64,000 nt of DNA. It comes from a bacterium endosymbiont of Pedicinus badii (GTDB lineage: Bacteria; Pseudomonadota; Gammaproteobacteria; Enterobacterales; Enterobacteriaceae). The notes beneath the pieces are model-generated. The model searched no databases. It was not told where the DNA came from and saw only the letters and a program-made list of their open reading frames with translations. The DNA lies in NCBI RefSeq assembly GCF_002075085.1, contig NZ_LKAS01000001.1, forward strand, positions 62,001 through 126,000. The letters run 5' to 3'. The position numbers and the translations under genes were made by a program. Positions 53,446 to 61,098 of the stretch are shown here, one piece after another; within the stretch, counting starts at the first letter, position 1; the number at the start of each line of letters is the position of its first letter.

Positions 53446-54239
53446 ATTTTAAATACTACATTTCTTTTATGTAAAGAATATAGATATAGATTTTCTATAA
53501 TTTTTTCATATTCTTTTTTGATTTTTTTTCCTTCTAAATATCTATCAATGTTCTTATAAGAAATTCCTATTGCTTTTTCATCAGAAACAAAAGGAAAAGA
53601 GTCTTCTAAACCAGACATTGGAGTTTTTTTATACAATATTTCTGGACATTTAAGATATTGAAGAATTTTTTTTCCTTGTCTTTTATTCAAATGAATTATG
53701 GGATTTATATCAACTGCATTATCTCCATATTTAGTAAAATATCCTGTTACTAATTCACAAGCATTTAAAGTTCCTACTACTATTCCAGAGTATATATTAG
53801 ATATTAAGTATTCAATTTTGGCTCTTTCTCTAGATTTTAAATTGCCTTTTATTTTTTCATTGATAGGTATATTTTTTTTTTTTAAAACACTGATAGTGTT
53901 TTCTACTATACTTTTAATATCAATTTTTATAATTTTATCTGGATTAATAAAATTAATTGCTTTTTCACAGTCTTTTTCATCTATTTGTTTTCCAAATGGC
54001 ATTCTTAATGCAATTAAAAAAACAGAAGAACTTTTTTTTTTTCTTATTTCAGAAATAGCAGATTGGCAAATTTTAGCTGTTAAAGTAGAGTCTTGTCCTC
54101 CACTGATTCCAATTATTAAAGATTTTATATTTCTATTATTTTGTATGTATTTTTGAATTTTTTTTTTAATTCCTCTAAATTCAGTTTCAGGAAAAATTTT
54201 TTGTTTTACGTTTAATTGAGATATAATCAACTTTTGCAT
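53442..54239 (-). CDS. nadE: NH3-dependent NAD synthetase
   Basis: NadE amidates deamido-NAD with ATP and ammonia. The 265 residues compare with 275 in E. coli. The PP-loop is GISGGQDSTLTAKICQ near residue 45, and GYFTKYGD and DINPIIHLNKRQGK follow. The segment after the core reads GTLNACELVTGYF, whereas I recall GTDHAAEAITGFF in E. coli, so the substrate loop differs. The C-terminal GLEDSFP and NIDRYLEGK resemble the enterobacterial enzyme. It lies one base after the ydjM stop. Confidence 0.92.
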   Translation of the reverse strand: MQKLIISQLNVKQKIFPETEFRGIKKKIQKYIQNNRNIKSLIIGISGGQDSTLTAKICQSAISEIRKKKSSSVFLIALRMPFGKQIDEKDCEKAINFINPDKIIKIDIKSIVENTISVLKKKNIPINEKIKGNLKSRERAKIEYLISNIYSGIVVGTLNACELVTGYFTKYGDNAVDINPIIHLNKRQGKKILQYLKCPEILYKKTPMSGLEDSFPFVSDEKAIGISYKNIDRYLEGKKIKKEYEKIIENLYLYSLHKRNVVFKI

Positions 54240-54240
54240 T

Positions 54241-54779
54241 TTATTTAAAAAGTACGTTAATTTTTTGTATAACTAGCTTTATAGCATAAAAAATATATTT
54301 TTCAAATACAATAAGTATAATAGATAAAAAAATTCCAAAATAAGACTCTTTTTTTTCATTTTTAGAACGTAGTATTGGAATGCTAAAATATATTCGAAAT
54401 GGCCAAAATATTGGTACTCCAAAAGGAGTAAAAAAATCTGCTAGAATATGTCCTAAGTATCCTATATAAATTCCATAAAATATACTTTTATAAAGACATT
54501 TTTCAAATATAGATGTAAAAAAATATACTATAGATACTGCTAACAGACTATGCGTAAAATCTCTATGACCAAAAAATTTAGAAATAGGAAAAGAAATAAA
54601 TTTTACTCTCTTTCCTATTGTAGATTTAGGATGATCGATGTCTGGAAATAAAAAAGAAATTAGATTTCCTAAAAATACAAAATTCCATTCTAAATTTTGT
54701 AAAATCTCGAAATATAAAGAAATTTTTTTATTTAGTAGTGTGAAGAATATAGAAAAAAAAAATGTCCTTTAAATTTCAT
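54241..54779 (-). CDS. ydjM: YdjM-like inner-membrane metal-dependent hydrolase, frame broken at poly(T)
   Basis: A DUF457-family membrane protein like E. coli YdjM (196 residues). The ATG at 54779 opens MKFKGHFFF and stops after 15 codons. The next frame gives SIFFTLLNKK and then runs to 54241 without a stop, with PDIDHPKSTIG, GHRDFTHSLLAV and GHILADFFTPFGVPIFWP, the His/Asp motifs of the family. They join if the ten T on the minus strand (54753-54762) were eleven, giving about 179 residues. There is no other start codon. The function of YdjM is not known beyond LexA control in E. coli. Confidence 0.78.
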
Positions 54780-54879
54780 ATTTTTTAAAATTAAAATCTG
54801 ACTTCTAAATAATTGTATTATACTCTAACTTATTTAAAATTTTTATTTTAAGTAAATCTTACTGAAATTAAGGATTTCA

Positions 54880-56769
54880 ATGATAGATATGAATTTTACT
54901 ATAAAAAATATACATTTAAAAAATTCTAGTTCTTTTAAAAAAGTTTTCGAATCTTTAGATAAAAAAATAAAAAAAATGTATGTAGCAGCAAAAATTAATG
55001 AAAACTTTATTTATTTTTCTGAAAATTTGAAAAAAAATTCTAAAATAAAAATTATTACTTATTTAGAAAAAGAAGGAATAAAAATTGCAAATTATTTTTA
55101 TGCTTATTTGTTAGGATTTGCTCTAAAAAAAACTTTTCCTAATATTAAAAGAAGAATTTTTGGAATAGAAGAAAAGAAATTTTTCTATGAATTTTCTTTT
55201 GATAAAAAAATAGAAAAAAAATATTGTTTAACATTAGAACAAGAAATGCAAAAAATATTTTTAGAAAATGCATTTTATATTAAAAAATTTTCTTTAAAAG
55301 AAGCAATAAATTTTTTTTCAGAAAAAAAAGAAGAGCATAAAATAGAATATATAAAAAAATACTTTTTAAAAAAAAATAGTATTTTTTTAATTTTCTATAA
55401 GAATTTTGCAGAAATAGCTAAAATTCCTTGCATATTAGAGAATAAAAAATTCTATTTCAAAATAAAAAAAATTAAATTTGTATCACAAGAAAAAAATAAG
55501 AAAAAAAAATTTATACAAAAAATTTTAGGAAAAGTCTATATAGATCGATATCACAAAGAAAATAATTCAATAATTGAAGAAAGAGATCATAGAAAAATAG
55601 CTAAAATTTTAGATTTATACCATATTGAAGAAACTTCTCCTGGAATGATTTTTTGGCATGATAATGGATGGACCATTTTTAAAGAATTAAAGAAATTAAT
55701 TAGAGAAAAATTAAAAAAATTTTCTTATCAAGAAGTGAAATGCTCTTTTATGACGGATAAAAAAATTTGGGAAACTACAGGACATTGGAAAAATTACAAA
55801 AAATATATATTTACAACGAATTTAGAAAAAAAAGTATACTGTATAAAGCCTATGAATTGTCCTTCTCATGCACAGATTTTTAAAAATAAAATTCGTTCTT
55901 ATAAAGACCTACCATTAAGAATTGCAGAATTTGGAAATTGTCATAGAAATGAGCCTTCTGGATCATTACATGGTCTTTTTAGAACTAGATGCTTTACCCA
56001 AGATGACGGACATATATTCTGTACTATAGAACAATCTGAAAAAGAAATTAGTGATTGTATTCAAATGATATACGAAACCTATAAAATATTTAATTTTAAA
56101 AATATAGAAGTAAAATTATCTACCAGACCAAAAAATAGGGTAGGAAAAGAAGAAATTTGGGAGATAGCAGAAAAAAAACTAAAATTTGTATTAGAAAAAA
56201 ATAAAATTAGTTTTTCTGATCAAATTGGAGAAGGAGCATTTTATGGTCCAAAAATTGAATTTATACTGTTGGATTCTTTAAATAGAGAATGGCAATGTGG
56301 TACAATACAGTTAGATTTTTTCTTACCGAAATATTTAAATGTAAATTATATAGATAAGAATAACGAAAAAAAAAATCCTGTTATGATTCATAGAGCAATA
56401 CTAGGATCAATAGAAAGATTTATAGGAATTATAACAGAAGAATATTATGGAAAATATCCAGTTTGGATTTCTCCTGTTCAAGTAGTTGTAATTAGTATAA
56501 GTTCAAAATATGACAAATACGTAAAATATGTAGAAAATGAACTAAATTTTCATAATATTAGAGTAAAAACAGATCTTAGAAACGAAAATTTGAATTTTAA
56601 AATTAGAGAAAATATACTATTAAGAATCCCATATATAATTATATGCGGAAAAAAAGAGAGCAGTACTAATACAATATCTATTCGAAAAAGAAACGAAAAA
56701 GAAATAAAAAATTTACAAATTAAAGAATTTCTAAAAATGGTAGAATTAGAAATACTTTATAAAAGGTAA
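54880..56769 (+). CDS. thrS: Threonyl-tRNA synthetase with degenerate editing site
   Basis: ThrS charges tRNA-Thr. The 629 residues compare with 642. The class II core is intact: [16 protein letters not shown]-like [12 protein letters not shown] with the zinc Cys, [26 protein letters not shown] and [13 protein letters not shown]. The N-terminal TGS domain is divergent. The editing domain has lost its catalytic residues: E. coli HSCAH (73-77) is YFYAY here, and the DMCRGPH segment is EIAKIPC. AAGGA lies before the ATG. The stop overlaps the infC ribosome binding site. Confidence 0.95.
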
Positions 56770-56780
56770 AGGAGAAATAT

Positions 56781-57332
56781 ATAAAAGTAAATAGAAGATT
56801 TCAAATGCTTAAAACACATAGAATTAATCGAGAAATTTTTGCTAAAAAAGTTAGATTAACAGATACTAAAGGTATACAAATTGGAATAGTTGATTTAGAA
56901 AAAGCTTTGAAAAAAGCAAAAGAATTAGAAATGGATTTAGTAGAAATCAGTCCAAATTCTAAACCTCCCGTTTGTAGAATTATGAATTACGGTAAATTCA
57001 TATATAAAAAGAATAAATCCATAAAAAAACAAAAAAAAAAACAAAAAACTGTACAAATTAAGGAGATTAAATTTCGTCCTAATACTGAATTAGGAGATTA
57101 TAAAATAAAAATAAGAAATCTGATAAAATTTTTAAAAGATGGAGATAAAACAAAAATTACTGTTCGATTCAGAGGGAGAGAAATTGTACACAAAGATATT
57201 GGAATTAGTATGTTATATCGTATAAAAAATGATTTAAATTCTTTTGGAAAAGTTGAATTTTTTTCAAAAAAAATAGAAGGAAGACAAATAACCATGATTG
57301 TTGCTCCAAAAATTTTTAATAGAAATAAATAA
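56781..57332 (+). CDS. infC: Translation initiation factor IF-3 with an AUA start
   Basis: IF-3 checks start codons and keeps ribosomal subunits apart. E. coli infC begins with AUU, which IF-3 itself rejects, giving autoregulation. Here the codon at the same aligned position is ATA (56781), six bases after GGAG. From it [16 protein letters not shown] aligns one for one with the E. coli MKGGKRVQTARPNRIN. That gives 183 residues (180 in E. coli). The first ATG, at 56805, would drop eight residues and has no ribosome binding site. [21 protein letters not shown] is conserved. Confidence 0.88.
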
Positions 57333-57336
57333 ATAT

Positions 57337-57534
57337 ATGAATAAAATAAAAACACTTCATAGTGCAGCAAAAAGATTTAAAAGAATTTCTTTAAATAAAA
57401 TCAAAAGAAAAAAAGCAAATTTAAGACATATTTTAACAAAAAAAAATTCTAATAGAAAAAGAAAATTAAGAAAAAAATCTTTAGTTTCTAAAAGTGATAT
57501 TTCTTTAATAAAACGTTGTTTACCTAATTTTTAG
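57337..57534 (+). CDS. rpmI: 50S ribosomal protein L35
   Basis: L35 has 65 residues, the same as E. coli, from the ATG at 57337. [26 protein letters not shown] and the C-terminal CLPNF are diagnostic. The initiator is four bases after the infC stop. An upstream in-frame TTG inside infC is not used by the family. It is the second gene of the conserved infC-rpmI-rplT operon. Confidence 0.97.
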
Positions 57535-57557
57535 TAGATAAATTTGGAGACCAATAA

Positions 57558-57920
57558 ATGGCAAGAGTTAAAAGAGGAAAAACAGCACATGCTAGACACA
57601 AAAAAATTCTAAAACTTGCAAAAGGATACTATGGTTCTAGATCTAGAACATATAGATCTGCTTTACAGTCTGTTACAAAATCTAGACAATATTCTTATAG
57701 AGATAGAAGAAATAAAAAAAGAGAATTTAGAAAATTATGGATTATAAGAATTGCTTTATCTTGCAAAAATAGTGGCATTTCTTATAGTAAATTTATTTTT
57801 GGATTAAAACAACTTTCTATAAAAATAAATAGAAAAATTTTATCTGATATGGCAATTAGAAATAAAACATATTTTAGATATTTATTAGAAAAAACAAAAA
57901 AACATCTTTCTATTCAATAA
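57558..57920 (+). CDS. rplT: 50S ribosomal protein L20
   Basis: L20 binds 23S rRNA early in assembly and in E. coli represses its own operon. The 120 residues compare with 118. [25 protein letters not shown] and [11 protein letters not shown] are almost unchanged. GGAG lies nine bases before the ATG. Confidence 0.98.
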
Positions 57921-57996: not shown

Positions 57997-58749
57997 ATGA
58001 AAAAAAAAAAAGAAAAAAATTATCACTTTTTTAAAAAATACGAAAAAGATTTTAGTTTACCAGGTAAAAAAAACACAATAGGTTCTATACATATAATTAA
58101 TCAGACAATACAAAAATCTGTTTTTATACTTAAAAAATTTGGATTTTTTTTAGAAAGTGGAAAAGAAATAGAAGATTCGTACCACAATTTTACTGCACTC
58201 AACGTACCTGAAAATCACCCTTCAAGAGATGAAAAAGACACTTTTTGGATTAGTAAAAATAAACTATTAAGAACACAAACTTCTGGAGTACAAATAAGAA
58301 TACTAAAAAAAAAAAAAATTCCTACTAAAGTAATCTCTTTTGGAAAAGTTTATAGAAAAGATTATGATAAAACCCATACTCCTATGTTTCATCAAATAGA
58401 AGGATTTTATGTAGATAAAAACGTAAATTTTTTGTACTTAAAAAATATATTAATAAATTTTATAAAAGAATTTTTTGAAAAAAAAATTCAGTTTCGTTTT
58501 AGATGTTCATACTTTCCATTTACTGAACCTTCTTTTGAAATTGATATCTCAAAAGATGATCGTTGGATTGAAGTATTAGGATGCGGTATGATTCATCCAA
58601 AAGTTTTAAAAAATGTAGGTATAGATTGCAATAAATATTCTGGATTTGCTTTTGGAATTGGAATAGAAAGACTAGCTTCTATAAAGTACGAAGTAGAAGA
58701 TATAAGACTATTTTTTGAAAATGATGTACGTTTTCTTAAACAATTTTGA
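57997..58749 (+). CDS. pheS: Phenylalanyl-tRNA synthetase alpha subunit lacking its coiled coil
   Basis: PheS carries the catalytic site of PheRS. The 250 residues correspond to E. coli from about residue 85 onward, with ESGKEIEDSYHNF, RTQTSGVQIR, THTPMFHQIEGF and motif 3 GFAFGIGIERL (the specificity Ala is kept). The N-terminal coiled coil that touches tRNA-Phe is absent, and only 76 bases lie between rplT and the ATG, so it is not hidden. The ATG is followed by 12 A, in frame. The E. coli leader peptide gene pheM is not recognisable. Confidence 0.94.
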   Translation: MKKKKEKNYHFFKKYEKDFSLPGKKNTIGSIHIINQTIQKSVFILKKFGFFLESGKEIEDSYHNFTALNVPENHPSRDEKDTFWISKNKLLRTQTSGVQIRILKKKKIPTKVISFGKVYRKDYDKTHTPMFHQIEGFYVDKNVNFLYLKNILINFIKEFFEKKIQFRFRCSYFPFTEPSFEIDISKDDRWIEVLGCGMIHPKVLKNVGIDCNKYSGFAFGIGIERLASIKYEVEDIRLFFENDVRFLKQF

Positions 58750-58767: not shown

Positions 58768-61098
58768 ATGAAAATTAGTAAAAATTGGCTCCAAGAATGG
58801 ATAAAAATAAAAATTTCAAAAAAAATTCTAAAAAAAATTACAAATATTGGAATAGAAGTTAGAAAAATAGCTCCTTTTTATAAAAAAAAAAATTTTCTTT
58901 CTATAGGAAAAATTATTAGTTATAAAAAAATTCAAAATTCTTATGCAGGCAAAGAATTTCTTATAGATATAGGAAAAAATTTTTTTTTAGTGGTTCTCTC
59001 TAAAGAAAAAGATTTGAAAAAAAATACTTTTGTAGTTGTTTCGTATTTTCAAGATGAAAAGAATGAGAAAAAAAAAATTGGAAAATTTTGTTATTTTTCT
59101 GACTTCATAAAAAATGAAAGAAAAAAAATTATTACAATACAAGAAAAATCTTTTTTAGGAAAAGATTTTAAAAAATATATGATGCTAAATGATAGTATTA
59201 TACATTTTAGTACACTTCCTAACAGACCAGATTTTAATAGTTTAATTGGAATTGCTAGAGAACTATCTTTTTACACAAAAAAAAAATTAAAAAATAAAAT
59301 TTATAAAAAATTCAATCCTACTTTTGAGTATCCTATAAAATTTAAAAAAAAAATTAAGAGTTCTTCTTTTTATCATTGTAGTTTAGTAATTAAAAATCTA
59401 GATACTAAAAAAAAAACTCCTTTATGGATGAAAATAAAACTACTAAAAAGTGGAATTCAAACAAAAAATGCAATTATTGATGTCTTAAATTACATTTTTT
59501 TAGAATTAGGACAACCGATTAATTTTTTTGATTTTCAAATGATTGGAAAATTAGTAGTAATTAGAAATTCTAAAGAAAACGAAGAATTTTATTATGAAAA
59601 TAAGAAAAAAATTTTTCTAAAAAAAAATACTATTGTCTTATCTAATCAAAAAAGCATTTTTTCTATAGTTGGAATAAGAAAAAATCAAATATTTAGCAAA
59701 GTATCAAAAGATATATTTTTAGAAACTACTATACTTCCTATAGAATTTATAAAAAAGAATTTAAAAAATCATCATTTAAATCAATTTTACAAATCTCACA
59801 CGAAAGGAATAGATATTAAAACACAAAAATTTGCTTTGAAAAAAGCTGCTTATTTTATTGCATCTATCTGTAAAGGAAGATGTAGCGAAATTTTTGAATA
59901 TTCTTCGGAGCCTAAAACAGAAAAAAAGATTGTCTTGCATGAAAAAAAAATAAAAAAAGTTTTAGGATTTAGAATAAGTAGAAAAATAGTAAAAAAGATT
60001 TTACAAAAAATAGGATTTTTAGTGAAAGAAAAAAAAGAAAATTTTTGTGTTTTTTCTCCTACTTGGAGATTTGATATAAAATACGAAGAAGATTTAATAG
60101 AAGAAATAATTAAAAATTTTAATCATAATAAATTTTTTTTAGAAGAAAAAAAATTTTATGAAAATAAAAAATTCGAAAACAATTACTTATTGGAACAAGA
60201 TATAAAAAAAATACTTATTGCAAGAGGATATTATGAGATAATTTCTTATAGTTTTGTAGACTCTAGTCTACAATCTTTGTTGTTTCCAAAAAAAAAATTT
60301 ATTTTTCTAAAAAATCCTATTTCGAATAATATGTCTGTACTAAGAGCTTCATTGCAAATAGGACTAATTTCAACTTGTTTATACAATATAAATAGAAAAA
60401 ATAATTCAGTTAGATTTTTTGAATTTGGAAAAGTATTTTTTTATAAAGATAATAATTACTGTAAAAAAAAGATAATACAAGAGAATTTTTTATCTGGAAT
60501 ATCTACTAAAGAAGAATTTTTACATTGGAAAGATAAAAAAAATTATTTGGATTTTTATGATATTAAAGGAGATTTAGAAGCTATATTTTTTTATTTGGAT
60601 ATTCATGATAGAGTCGCTTTTAAAAAAACGAATACTCCTTTTCTCAATAAGAAATGTAGTTCTGATATATTTTTAAATGAAAAAAATATAGGTTTTGTAG
60701 GATTTTTAAAAAAAGAAATAAGACAAAAAATAAAACTTAAAAAAGAAATTTTTCTTTTTGAAATATTTTGGGATAAGATTCCAAATAAAAAACACAAAAA
60801 ATTCAGAAATTTTTCGAAATATCCTTTTAGTATAAGAGATATTTCTATGATTATCAAACAAAATATTACTTTTGGAAAAATTTTAAAAGAATGTAAAAAA
60901 ATTAAGCAAAAAGAAAATGTAGAATTCAGTTTAATAGATGTATACATAGGAGAAAATATACCTATAGGGTATAAAAGTTATACAATTTCTTTAAAAATAC
61001 AAGGAATGTTCCATACTATAAACGAAAAAGAAACGGAAAAAATAGTAAAGAAATATACTACTATGTTGGAAAAAAAATTTCTTGCAAAAATTAGATAA
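58768..61098 (+). CDS. pheT: Phenylalanyl-tRNA synthetase beta subunit with degenerate editing site
   Basis: PheT completes the PheRS heterotetramer. The 776 residues compare with 795. The domains run in order: an EMAP-type tRNA-binding region (about 39-145, divergent), B3/B4 editing (about 200-400), B5 (SPTWRFDIKYEEDLIEEI), the catalytic-like core and the C-terminal anticodon-binding FDX domain (RDISMI, GYKSYTISL). In B3/B4 the E. coli editing residues His265, Thr354 and Ala356 are Asn252, Asn338 and Phe340, and only Glu334 (Glu319) remains. ihfA, next in E. coli, is absent. Confidence 0.94.
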   Translation: MKISKNWLQEWIKIKISKKILKKITNIGIEVRKIAPFYKKKNFLSIGKIISYKKIQNSYAGKEFLIDIGKNFFLVVLSKEKDLKKNTFVVVSYFQDEKNEKKKIGKFCYFSDFIKNERKKIITIQEKSFLGKDFKKYMMLNDSIIHFSTLPNRPDFNSLIGIARELSFYTKKKLKNKIYKKFNPTFEYPIKFKKKIKSSSFYHCSLVIKNLDTKKKTPLWMKIKLLKSGIQTKNAIIDVLNYIFLELGQPINFFDFQMIGKLVVIRNSKENEEFYYENKKKIFLKKNTIVLSNQKSIFSIVGIRKNQIFSKVSKDIFLETTILPIEFIKKNLKNHHLNQFYKSHTKGIDIKTQKFALKKAAYFIASICKGRCSEIFEYSSEPKTEKKIVLHEKKIKKVLGFRISRKIVKKILQKIGFLVKEKKENFCVFSPTWRFDIKYEEDLIEEIIKNFNHNKFFLEEKKFYENKKFENNYLLEQDIKKILIARGYYEIISYSFVDSSLQSLLFPKKKFIFLKNPISNNMSVLRASLQIGLISTCLYNINRKNNSVRFFEFGKVFFYKDNNYCKKKIIQENFLSGISTKEEFLHWKDKKNYLDFYDIKGDLEAIFFYLDIHDRVAFKKTNTPFLNKKCSSDIFLNEKNIGFVGFLKKEIRQKIKLKKEIFLFEIFWDKIPNKKHKKFRNFSKYPFSIRDISMIIKQNITFGKILKECKKIKQKENVEFSLIDVYIGENIPIGYKSYTISLKIQGMFHTINEKETEKIVKKYTTMLEKKFLAKIR

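Follow-up and report, generated by a model that had tools for sequence, protein, structure and literature searches.

The question raised by this locus is whether the threonyl-tRNA synthetase (ThrRS) encoded there still proofreads its own product and, if it does not, why an editing domain is still attached to it. The window, by which we mean the whole stretch of 64,000 nucleotides that was analysed, belongs to a genome of 558,122 bases on two contigs that is 99.91% complete, and the same length, 558,122 bp under two accessions, is published for Puchtella sp. PRUG, the symbiont of the louse Pedicinus badii, which the accompanying phylogeny places as sister to Lightella (PMC9376444). Puchtella is entered in the literature as a louse endosymbiont within the Enterobacteriaceae, and we take the window's genome to be that of this insect symbiont.

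Editing-deficient synthetases were reportedly described in Mycoplasma by Li in 2011 and in host-restricted bacteria by Melnikov in 2018. According to reviews, editing has degenerated in many, or even most, bacteria restricted to a host (PMC7373986, PMC10057733, PMC11415595). The preliminary description of this DNA, which referred to loss of synthetase editing as described in mycoplasmas, was true in that respect but too narrow, as the phenomenon extends to host-restricted bacteria in general and the organism here is an Enterobacteriaceae symbiont. Editing loss in such bacteria is thus already published and the present ThrRS is another case. Our search, which lay outside most subscription papers, found no paper joining Puchtella and a tRNA synthetase, and the parts of the endosymbiont literature that were available (including PMC4014445 and PMC5322561) do not describe this ThrRS.

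The thrS locus

The G+C content of the window is 20-27% (in 4 kb steps) and ~22% around thrS. NCBIfam models identified kdsA, nadE (on the reverse strand), thrS and pheT, whilst infC, rplT and pheS were placed between thrS and pheT by eye from the translations. Upstream, on the minus strand at 54241-54768, lies an open stretch of 175 aa with a YdjM match (PF04307, 93.4 bits) that contains no ORF of at least 100 aa starting with ATG, GTG or TTG, so that either its start codon is unusual or the gene is decaying. The thrS product scored 537.9 bits on TIGR00418 against a cut-off of 383.65, and its frame runs free of stops for 629 aa under translation table 11, which rules out an artefact of the genetic code. 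Its features are as follows (G001 is a large relative):

54880..56769, + strand: thrS, threonyl-tRNA synthetase, 629 aa (TIGR00418; phmmer to 1qf6, E 5.6e-185)
54880..55062, + strand: N1 (TGS-like), residues 1-61, strongly diverged (18% identity to G001; no Pfam TGS match)
55069..55545, + strand: N2, residues ~64-222, editing domain lacking the catalytic residues (25% identity to G001; pLDDT in blocks of 80-97)
55093..55107, + strand: YFYAY (residues 72-76) where E. coli has HSCAH (73-77), codons TAT TTT TAT GCT TAT (phmmer to 1qf6, 72-sequence alignment)
55339..55341, + strand: K154 (E. coli K156), kept (invariant in 48 rows of alignment A1)
55411..55431, + strand: EIAKIPC (residues 178-184) where E. 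coli has DMCRGPH (180-186) (phmmer to 1qf6, 72-sequence alignment)
55582..56463, + strand: class II catalytic core, residues 235-528 (PF00587, 180.2 bits; Z 54.6 to the E. coli core 8wia)
55858..55860, + strand: zinc ligand C327 (E. coli C334), by alignment
56011..56013, + strand: zinc ligand H378 (E. coli H385), by alignment
56389..56391, + strand: zinc ligand H504 (E. coli H511), by alignment
56464..56766, + strand: anticodon-binding domain, residues 529-629 (PF03129, 70.4 bits)

With 234 N-terminal residues in frame the protein is not a core-only ThrRS of the MST1 type. Its synthetic-site residues C334, H385, H511, R363, D383, Q381, Y462, Q479 and Q484 (E. coli numbering) are all present, and at the level of these residues the synthetic site is intact, zinc ligands included. 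Three tRNA-Thr genes, with anticodons GGT, TGT and CGT, are found in the genome. A second ThrRS was considered and rejected: the other match to the window protein is 26% identical (E 1.2e-13) and lies in a frame aligned as ProRS, and of the five genome matches counted for TIGR00418, those among the matches listed are thrS and this same frame.

Loss of the editing tetrad

The replacement of HSCAH by YFYAY and of DMCRGPH by EIAKIPC had been proposed in the preliminary description, and both the phmmer alignment to 1qf6 and the 72-sequence alignment bear it out, agreeing column by column on the changes H73Y, H77Y, D180E, C182A and H186C; C75Y lies between the first two. H73, H77, D180, C182 and H186 are conserved in 30/30 large relatives (2.0-5.5 Mb; the best-scoring 30 of 60 genomes, therefore chosen by score and not each confirmed as free-living), so that the loss of the tetrad is not due to chance. 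Lys154, the counterpart of K156, which we take to be an editing-site residue of E. coli ThrRS, is kept, and D180E, with Glu for Asp, is a mild change.

In E. coli ThrRS, editing depends critically on each of C182, H73, H77 and H186: the C182A and C182S variants have lost it altogether, whilst kcat falls 7000-fold in H73A and 70-fold in H186A (PMC4041444). The earlier wording that 'every catalytic residue' had gone consequently stands for the four critical residues (PMC4041444) but not beyond them, given that D180 has merely become Glu and K156 is kept. The suggested loss of post-transfer editing is supported by the sequence in combination with these mutants (PMC4041444); with the four residues of the editing pocket gone the window ThrRS would be unable to hydrolyse Ser-tRNA-Thr, and its editing activity is presumably zero. 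The E. coli C182A enzyme has the same pocket and the same lost nucleophile, with one engineered change compared with a whole tetrad lost here.

An alternative alignment restoring a His-x3-His pair together with the second-site Cys and His was looked for and none is possible, since neither HxxxH nor CxxxH occurs anywhere in the window ThrRS, so that realignment cannot rescue the editing site. Residues 1-234 contain His only at 12, 153 and 225 and Cys only at 116 and 184, the latter occupying the position of H186 with no His partners in the sequence. Across the six frames of the window there was no HxxxH followed by CxxxH at a spacing of 85-130 residues.

Search for an editor in trans

Three kinds of free-standing editor were sought in the genome, namely ThrX/AlaX (PF07973), ProXp/YbaK (PF04073) and archaeal ThrRS-ed (PF08915). 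At E up to 10, PF07973 matched in one place, inside AlaRS, with the same search positive in 14/14 control genomes; PF04073 likewise had a single match, to the insert in the ProRS-aligned frame; and PF08915 gave no match, a family positive in only 5/14 control genomes. Searches with these three families thus revealed no free-standing editor across the 558 kb, and so no sign of the ThrX-type editor that would have spoken against the preliminary description.

Editing might still be supplied in trans by a symbiont protein of another family or by an imported host deacylase, given that the search was limited to PF07973, PF04073 and PF08915 and that Portiera and Carsonella have been suggested to import proteins encoded in the host nucleus (PMC5322561). 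We regard this as very improbable, as these families gave no extra match in the genome and the symbiont still encodes its own ThrRS.

Fold of the N2 domain

N2 is strongly diverged, with 25% identity to G001 compared to 62% for the core, and of the positions invariant in the 30 large relatives it keeps 23/75 compared to 148/178 in the core. Searched at E up to 10 with residues 1-224, and at E up to 1 with the full-length protein, Pfam gave no match to tRNA_SAD (PF07973) or TGS (PF02824). AlphaFold2 predicted the full protein with a mean pLDDT of 87.8 and residues 1-224 alone with a pLDDT of 88.5 and a pTM of 0.86, both models resting on alignments of mostly intact homologues that may pull the fold. 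The predicted N1-N2 part superposed on the E. coli editing domain 1tje (Z 22.8, rmsd 2.8, 214 residues aligned), with the alignment starting at residue 6, which supports the N1 part. The N2 fold thus seems to persist in these predictions despite loss of the tetrad, as the preliminary description of the domain as a fold-like spacer had anticipated.

The same N1-N2 fold is found in chain Lm of 8k2a (Z 18.7, 214 residues aligned), presumably mL39, which is a ribosomal protein and not a synthetase. This mammalian mitoribosome protein, together with the open frame and confidently predicted fold of N2, could be taken to mean that the domain now acts on a different substrate, Cys184 having become its nucleophile. 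We think this very improbable: only 23 of the 75 invariant N2 positions survive, His153 is the sole His left within N2 and lies far from the tetrad positions in the sequence, and the genus taken as Lightella, the published sister, has dispensed with its N-terminal domains.

An autoregulatory thrS leader was examined as a reason for retaining N2 and set aside, with no Rfam match within 54000-57800 at E up to 1 and ordinary folding of 54700-54900 (z 0.37), which would still leave room for such a leader.

ThrRS in reduced relatives

The state of ThrRS was compared across 42 genomes, reduced or AT-rich, from 28 genera, the window's own included, comprising 14 from the 60-genome set and 28 added from the 39/392 family members carrying an AT-rich ThrRS DNA pattern; as this pattern left many small family genomes unmatched and its loci came from listings of limited length, the 42 are not a census. 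The tetrad was intact in 5 and mutated in 21, whilst the N-terminal domains were absent from 16, belonging to 7 genera. An intact tetrad was found in 1/30 genomes of at most 0.6 Mb (rounded sizes) compared to 4/12 larger ones. The zinc ligands and R363, D383, Q381 and Y462 were kept in 42/42, and Q479 and Q484 were likewise present in 42/42, which says little since their codons lie inside the pattern by which most of the genomes were found. In a deeply decayed set the tetrad was kept at 6/56 positions compared to 504/980 for other N2 residues, a partly circular comparison on which we do not lean, since the state of the tetrad had served to define the set.

The N-terminal domains were absent in 5/5 genomes of genus g6, taken as Lightella, so that in the lineage published as sister to Puchtella the loss of the domain is complete. 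Several of the shortened proteins start near the boundary at which the E. coli enzyme was cut for crystallisation (~residue 242) and others have longer leaders. Upstream of the core-only thrS of G322 there is a stop-ridden, in-frame remnant of an N2 helix between stops, LLSCAYLMGHAVKK, which on sequence grounds is domain loss caught in progress; profile matches in G005 and G007 also cross stops upstream of the core.

A tree of the ThrRS core grouped the window with G100 and G221 (taken as Nardonella) with support of 96/94; the published phylogeny pairs Puchtella with Lightella (PMC9376444). Because of its long branches we consider our tree unsafe and have not used it for kinship. The number of changes counted on this tree was 4 for intact versus lost and 11 for three states, the weakness from long branches being common to both.

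The 42 genomes also bear on the possibility that the synthetic site itself maintains fidelity, through better rejection of Ser or hydrolysis of Ser-AMP, so that errors in the proteome stay low. The yeast mitochondrial ThrRS performs tRNA-dependent pre-transfer editing with no editing domain (PMC4267643), editing loss can accompany higher specificity according to a review (PMC11415595), and two core changes lie near zinc ligands of the window enzyme, A384G next to H385 and G336S two positions away from C334. On the other hand, position 384 is Gly in only 6/42 and position 336 is Ser in 1/42 of the reduced or AT-rich genomes, so that no shared compensating change is seen in the core, and the named synthetic-site ligands are unchanged. 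We consider retention of fidelity in this way rather unlikely.

Mutation bias and selection

By the shortest path, the change from HSCAH to YFYAY takes four single GC-to-AT transitions. The same direction was taken by 21/24 one-step changes at invariant N2 sites and by 17/21 in the core, which shows that the AT bias is general; with mutation pressure general, the difference lies in the selection that has let the editing pocket go.

The collection includes no second genome of the window's genus, so estimates of dN/dS were obtained from other genera and are rough, synonymous sites being fairly saturated. For N2 with a mutated tetrad, dN/dS was 0.33 (G010/G337) and 0.44 (G205/G284), in two other genera, and the anticodon-binding domains of the same two pairs gave 0.33 and 0.43; N1 of these dead pairs gave 0.24 and 0.60. 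The dead N2 of both pairs is therefore under purifying selection and not simply neutral. N2 of genus g63, with two of three members intact and H73C in G198, gave 0.24-0.32. In genus g101 (domain lost in G100, tetrad mutated in G221) dN/dS was 1.74 over 32 alignable codons, with 0.79 for the core, as expected once the domain is being lost. The constraint on the dead N2 would reflect a role in holding the acceptor arm.

As to cost, E. coli with ThrRS C182A grows like wild type, which E. coli with AlaRS C666A does not (PMC6918089), and Thr-to-Ser substitution has been described as possibly better tolerated (PMC10057733). This tolerance has a limit, since stronger Thr-to-Ser miscoding causes growth defects in E. 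coli (PMC6918089) and oxidation of ThrRS is costly when heat-shock proteases are lacking (PMC10057733). A large Thr-to-Ser error rate would not be free, given that high levels slow E. coli (PMC6918089).

Editing sites of other synthetases

In 14 reduced genomes the residues that we take to be the editing sites of the Phe, Leu, Pro, Ile, Val and Ala synthetases were read against a large relative, whose letters matched the expected editing residues; AlaRS could be read in 13 genomes and ProRS in 12, the remainder being split over contigs or lacking the insert. Editing residues were kept at 26/70 positions for Thr, 29/70 for Phe, 51/84 for Leu and 16/24 for Pro, and at 77/84 for Ile, 96/98 for Val and 52/52 for Ala. 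Two further genes of the window belong here:

57997..58749, + strand: pheS, PheRS alpha, 250 aa, ~75 residues shorter at the N-terminus than most relatives (by eye)
58768..61098, + strand: pheT, PheRS beta, with R244Q, H265N, T354N and A356F, and E334 kept (TIGR00472; B3/4 domain recognised, 104.6 bits)

PheRS alpha has 126 residues before HTPMFHQ compared to 201-205 in 12/14 other genomes, and the missing N-terminal part, which we take to be the coiled coil, seems to be gone; the proteins of G030 and G010 are shorter still at this point (96 and 29 residues), perhaps because the first Met is late or the locus is cut. LeuRS of the window's genome is an 801 aa protein with 13% identity in CP1 compared to 66% before it, a sub-threshold PF13603 match (18.2 versus 25 bits) and the changes T247I, T248N, R249K, T252E and D345N, D342 aligning as Asp. 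Judged by their residues, the ThrRS, LeuRS and PheRS editing sites are all lost in this genome, the latter two losses being absent from the preliminary description.

ProRS of the window's genome keeps K279 and has H369Y, and its AlaRS and ValRS editing sites are kept, as is that of IleRS but for T243N, a change also present in three other genomes. G010 and G018, in which PF04073 gave no match at E up to 10, seem to have lost the ProRS editing insert. The ValRS matches of the window's genome (C2:171872-174445) and of G021 stop at profile positions 795 and 810 of 863, before the C-terminal coiled coil; the frames are of 867 aa and 873 aa respectively (the latter with one stop inside the match), and their editing motifs are intact except for T222I in G021.

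In G008 (2.0 Mb) the ThrRS tetrad is intact and the editing residues of LeuRS and PheRS are mostly lost, so that ThrRS is not always the first to go and the order is not strict. Two Portiera strains devoid of alaS retain the free-standing editor alaXp (PMC5322561), which fits with Ala editing going last.

Discussion

We hold it to be highly probable that the window encodes an ordinary bacterial ThrRS in which post-transfer editing in cis has died as selection relaxed in a host-bound symbiont whose mutation is AT-biased. Such an enzyme would charge tRNA-Thr through its intact zinc site, Ser-tRNA-Thr would go unhydrolysed by it, and N2 would be retained as a folded, non-catalytic part probably because the full-length enzyme needs it for holding the acceptor arm. 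This state would come a single step ahead of that in Lightella, whose ThrRS has shed its N-terminal domains. The Thr-to-Ser error rate of the symbiont would presumably be raised. Serine at Thr codons is plausible and no more than that, in view of the pre-transfer editing of a domain-less ThrRS (PMC4267643) and of editing losses that do not always bring errors (PMC11415595).

The losses across synthetases may further form a ladder of erosion ordered by the harm of the substitution, on which Thr, Phe and Leu editing go, Pro editing goes in part and Val, Ile and Ala editing stay, with the dead N2 of ThrRS selected as a tRNA-holder and then cut near the core boundary; we offer this tentatively, at somewhat less than even chances.

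In known systems the closest likeness is to Mycoplasma and other host-restricted bacteria, with small genomes and editing domains that are degenerate or deleted, ThrRS, LeuRS and PheRS being those named for Mycoplasma. The window's genome differs in belonging to an Enterobacteriaceae insect symbiont, in having lost three editing sites and in seemingly keeping the N2 fold. The yeast mitochondrial ThrRS (MST1) also works without a post-transfer editing domain, and its core superposes on that of the window enzyme (Z 49.5 to 4eo4); it is core-only, whereas the window ThrRS has N-terminal domains, and the shortened ThrRS of g6 (Lightella) and of other genera is the closer parallel to it.

The study by Melnikov may already list genomes with three losses. 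The present case is of value for its series of states and for the three losses within one genome. No Mycoplasma genome with at least three editing losses is known according to the review that suggested such a limit, and by their residues three editing sites have been lost together here, against the limit of two suggested from mycoplasmas (PMC7373986). The natural series from intact through mutated to core-only ThrRS allows one to ask what a dead domain still does, and also which mistranslations a cell can bear.
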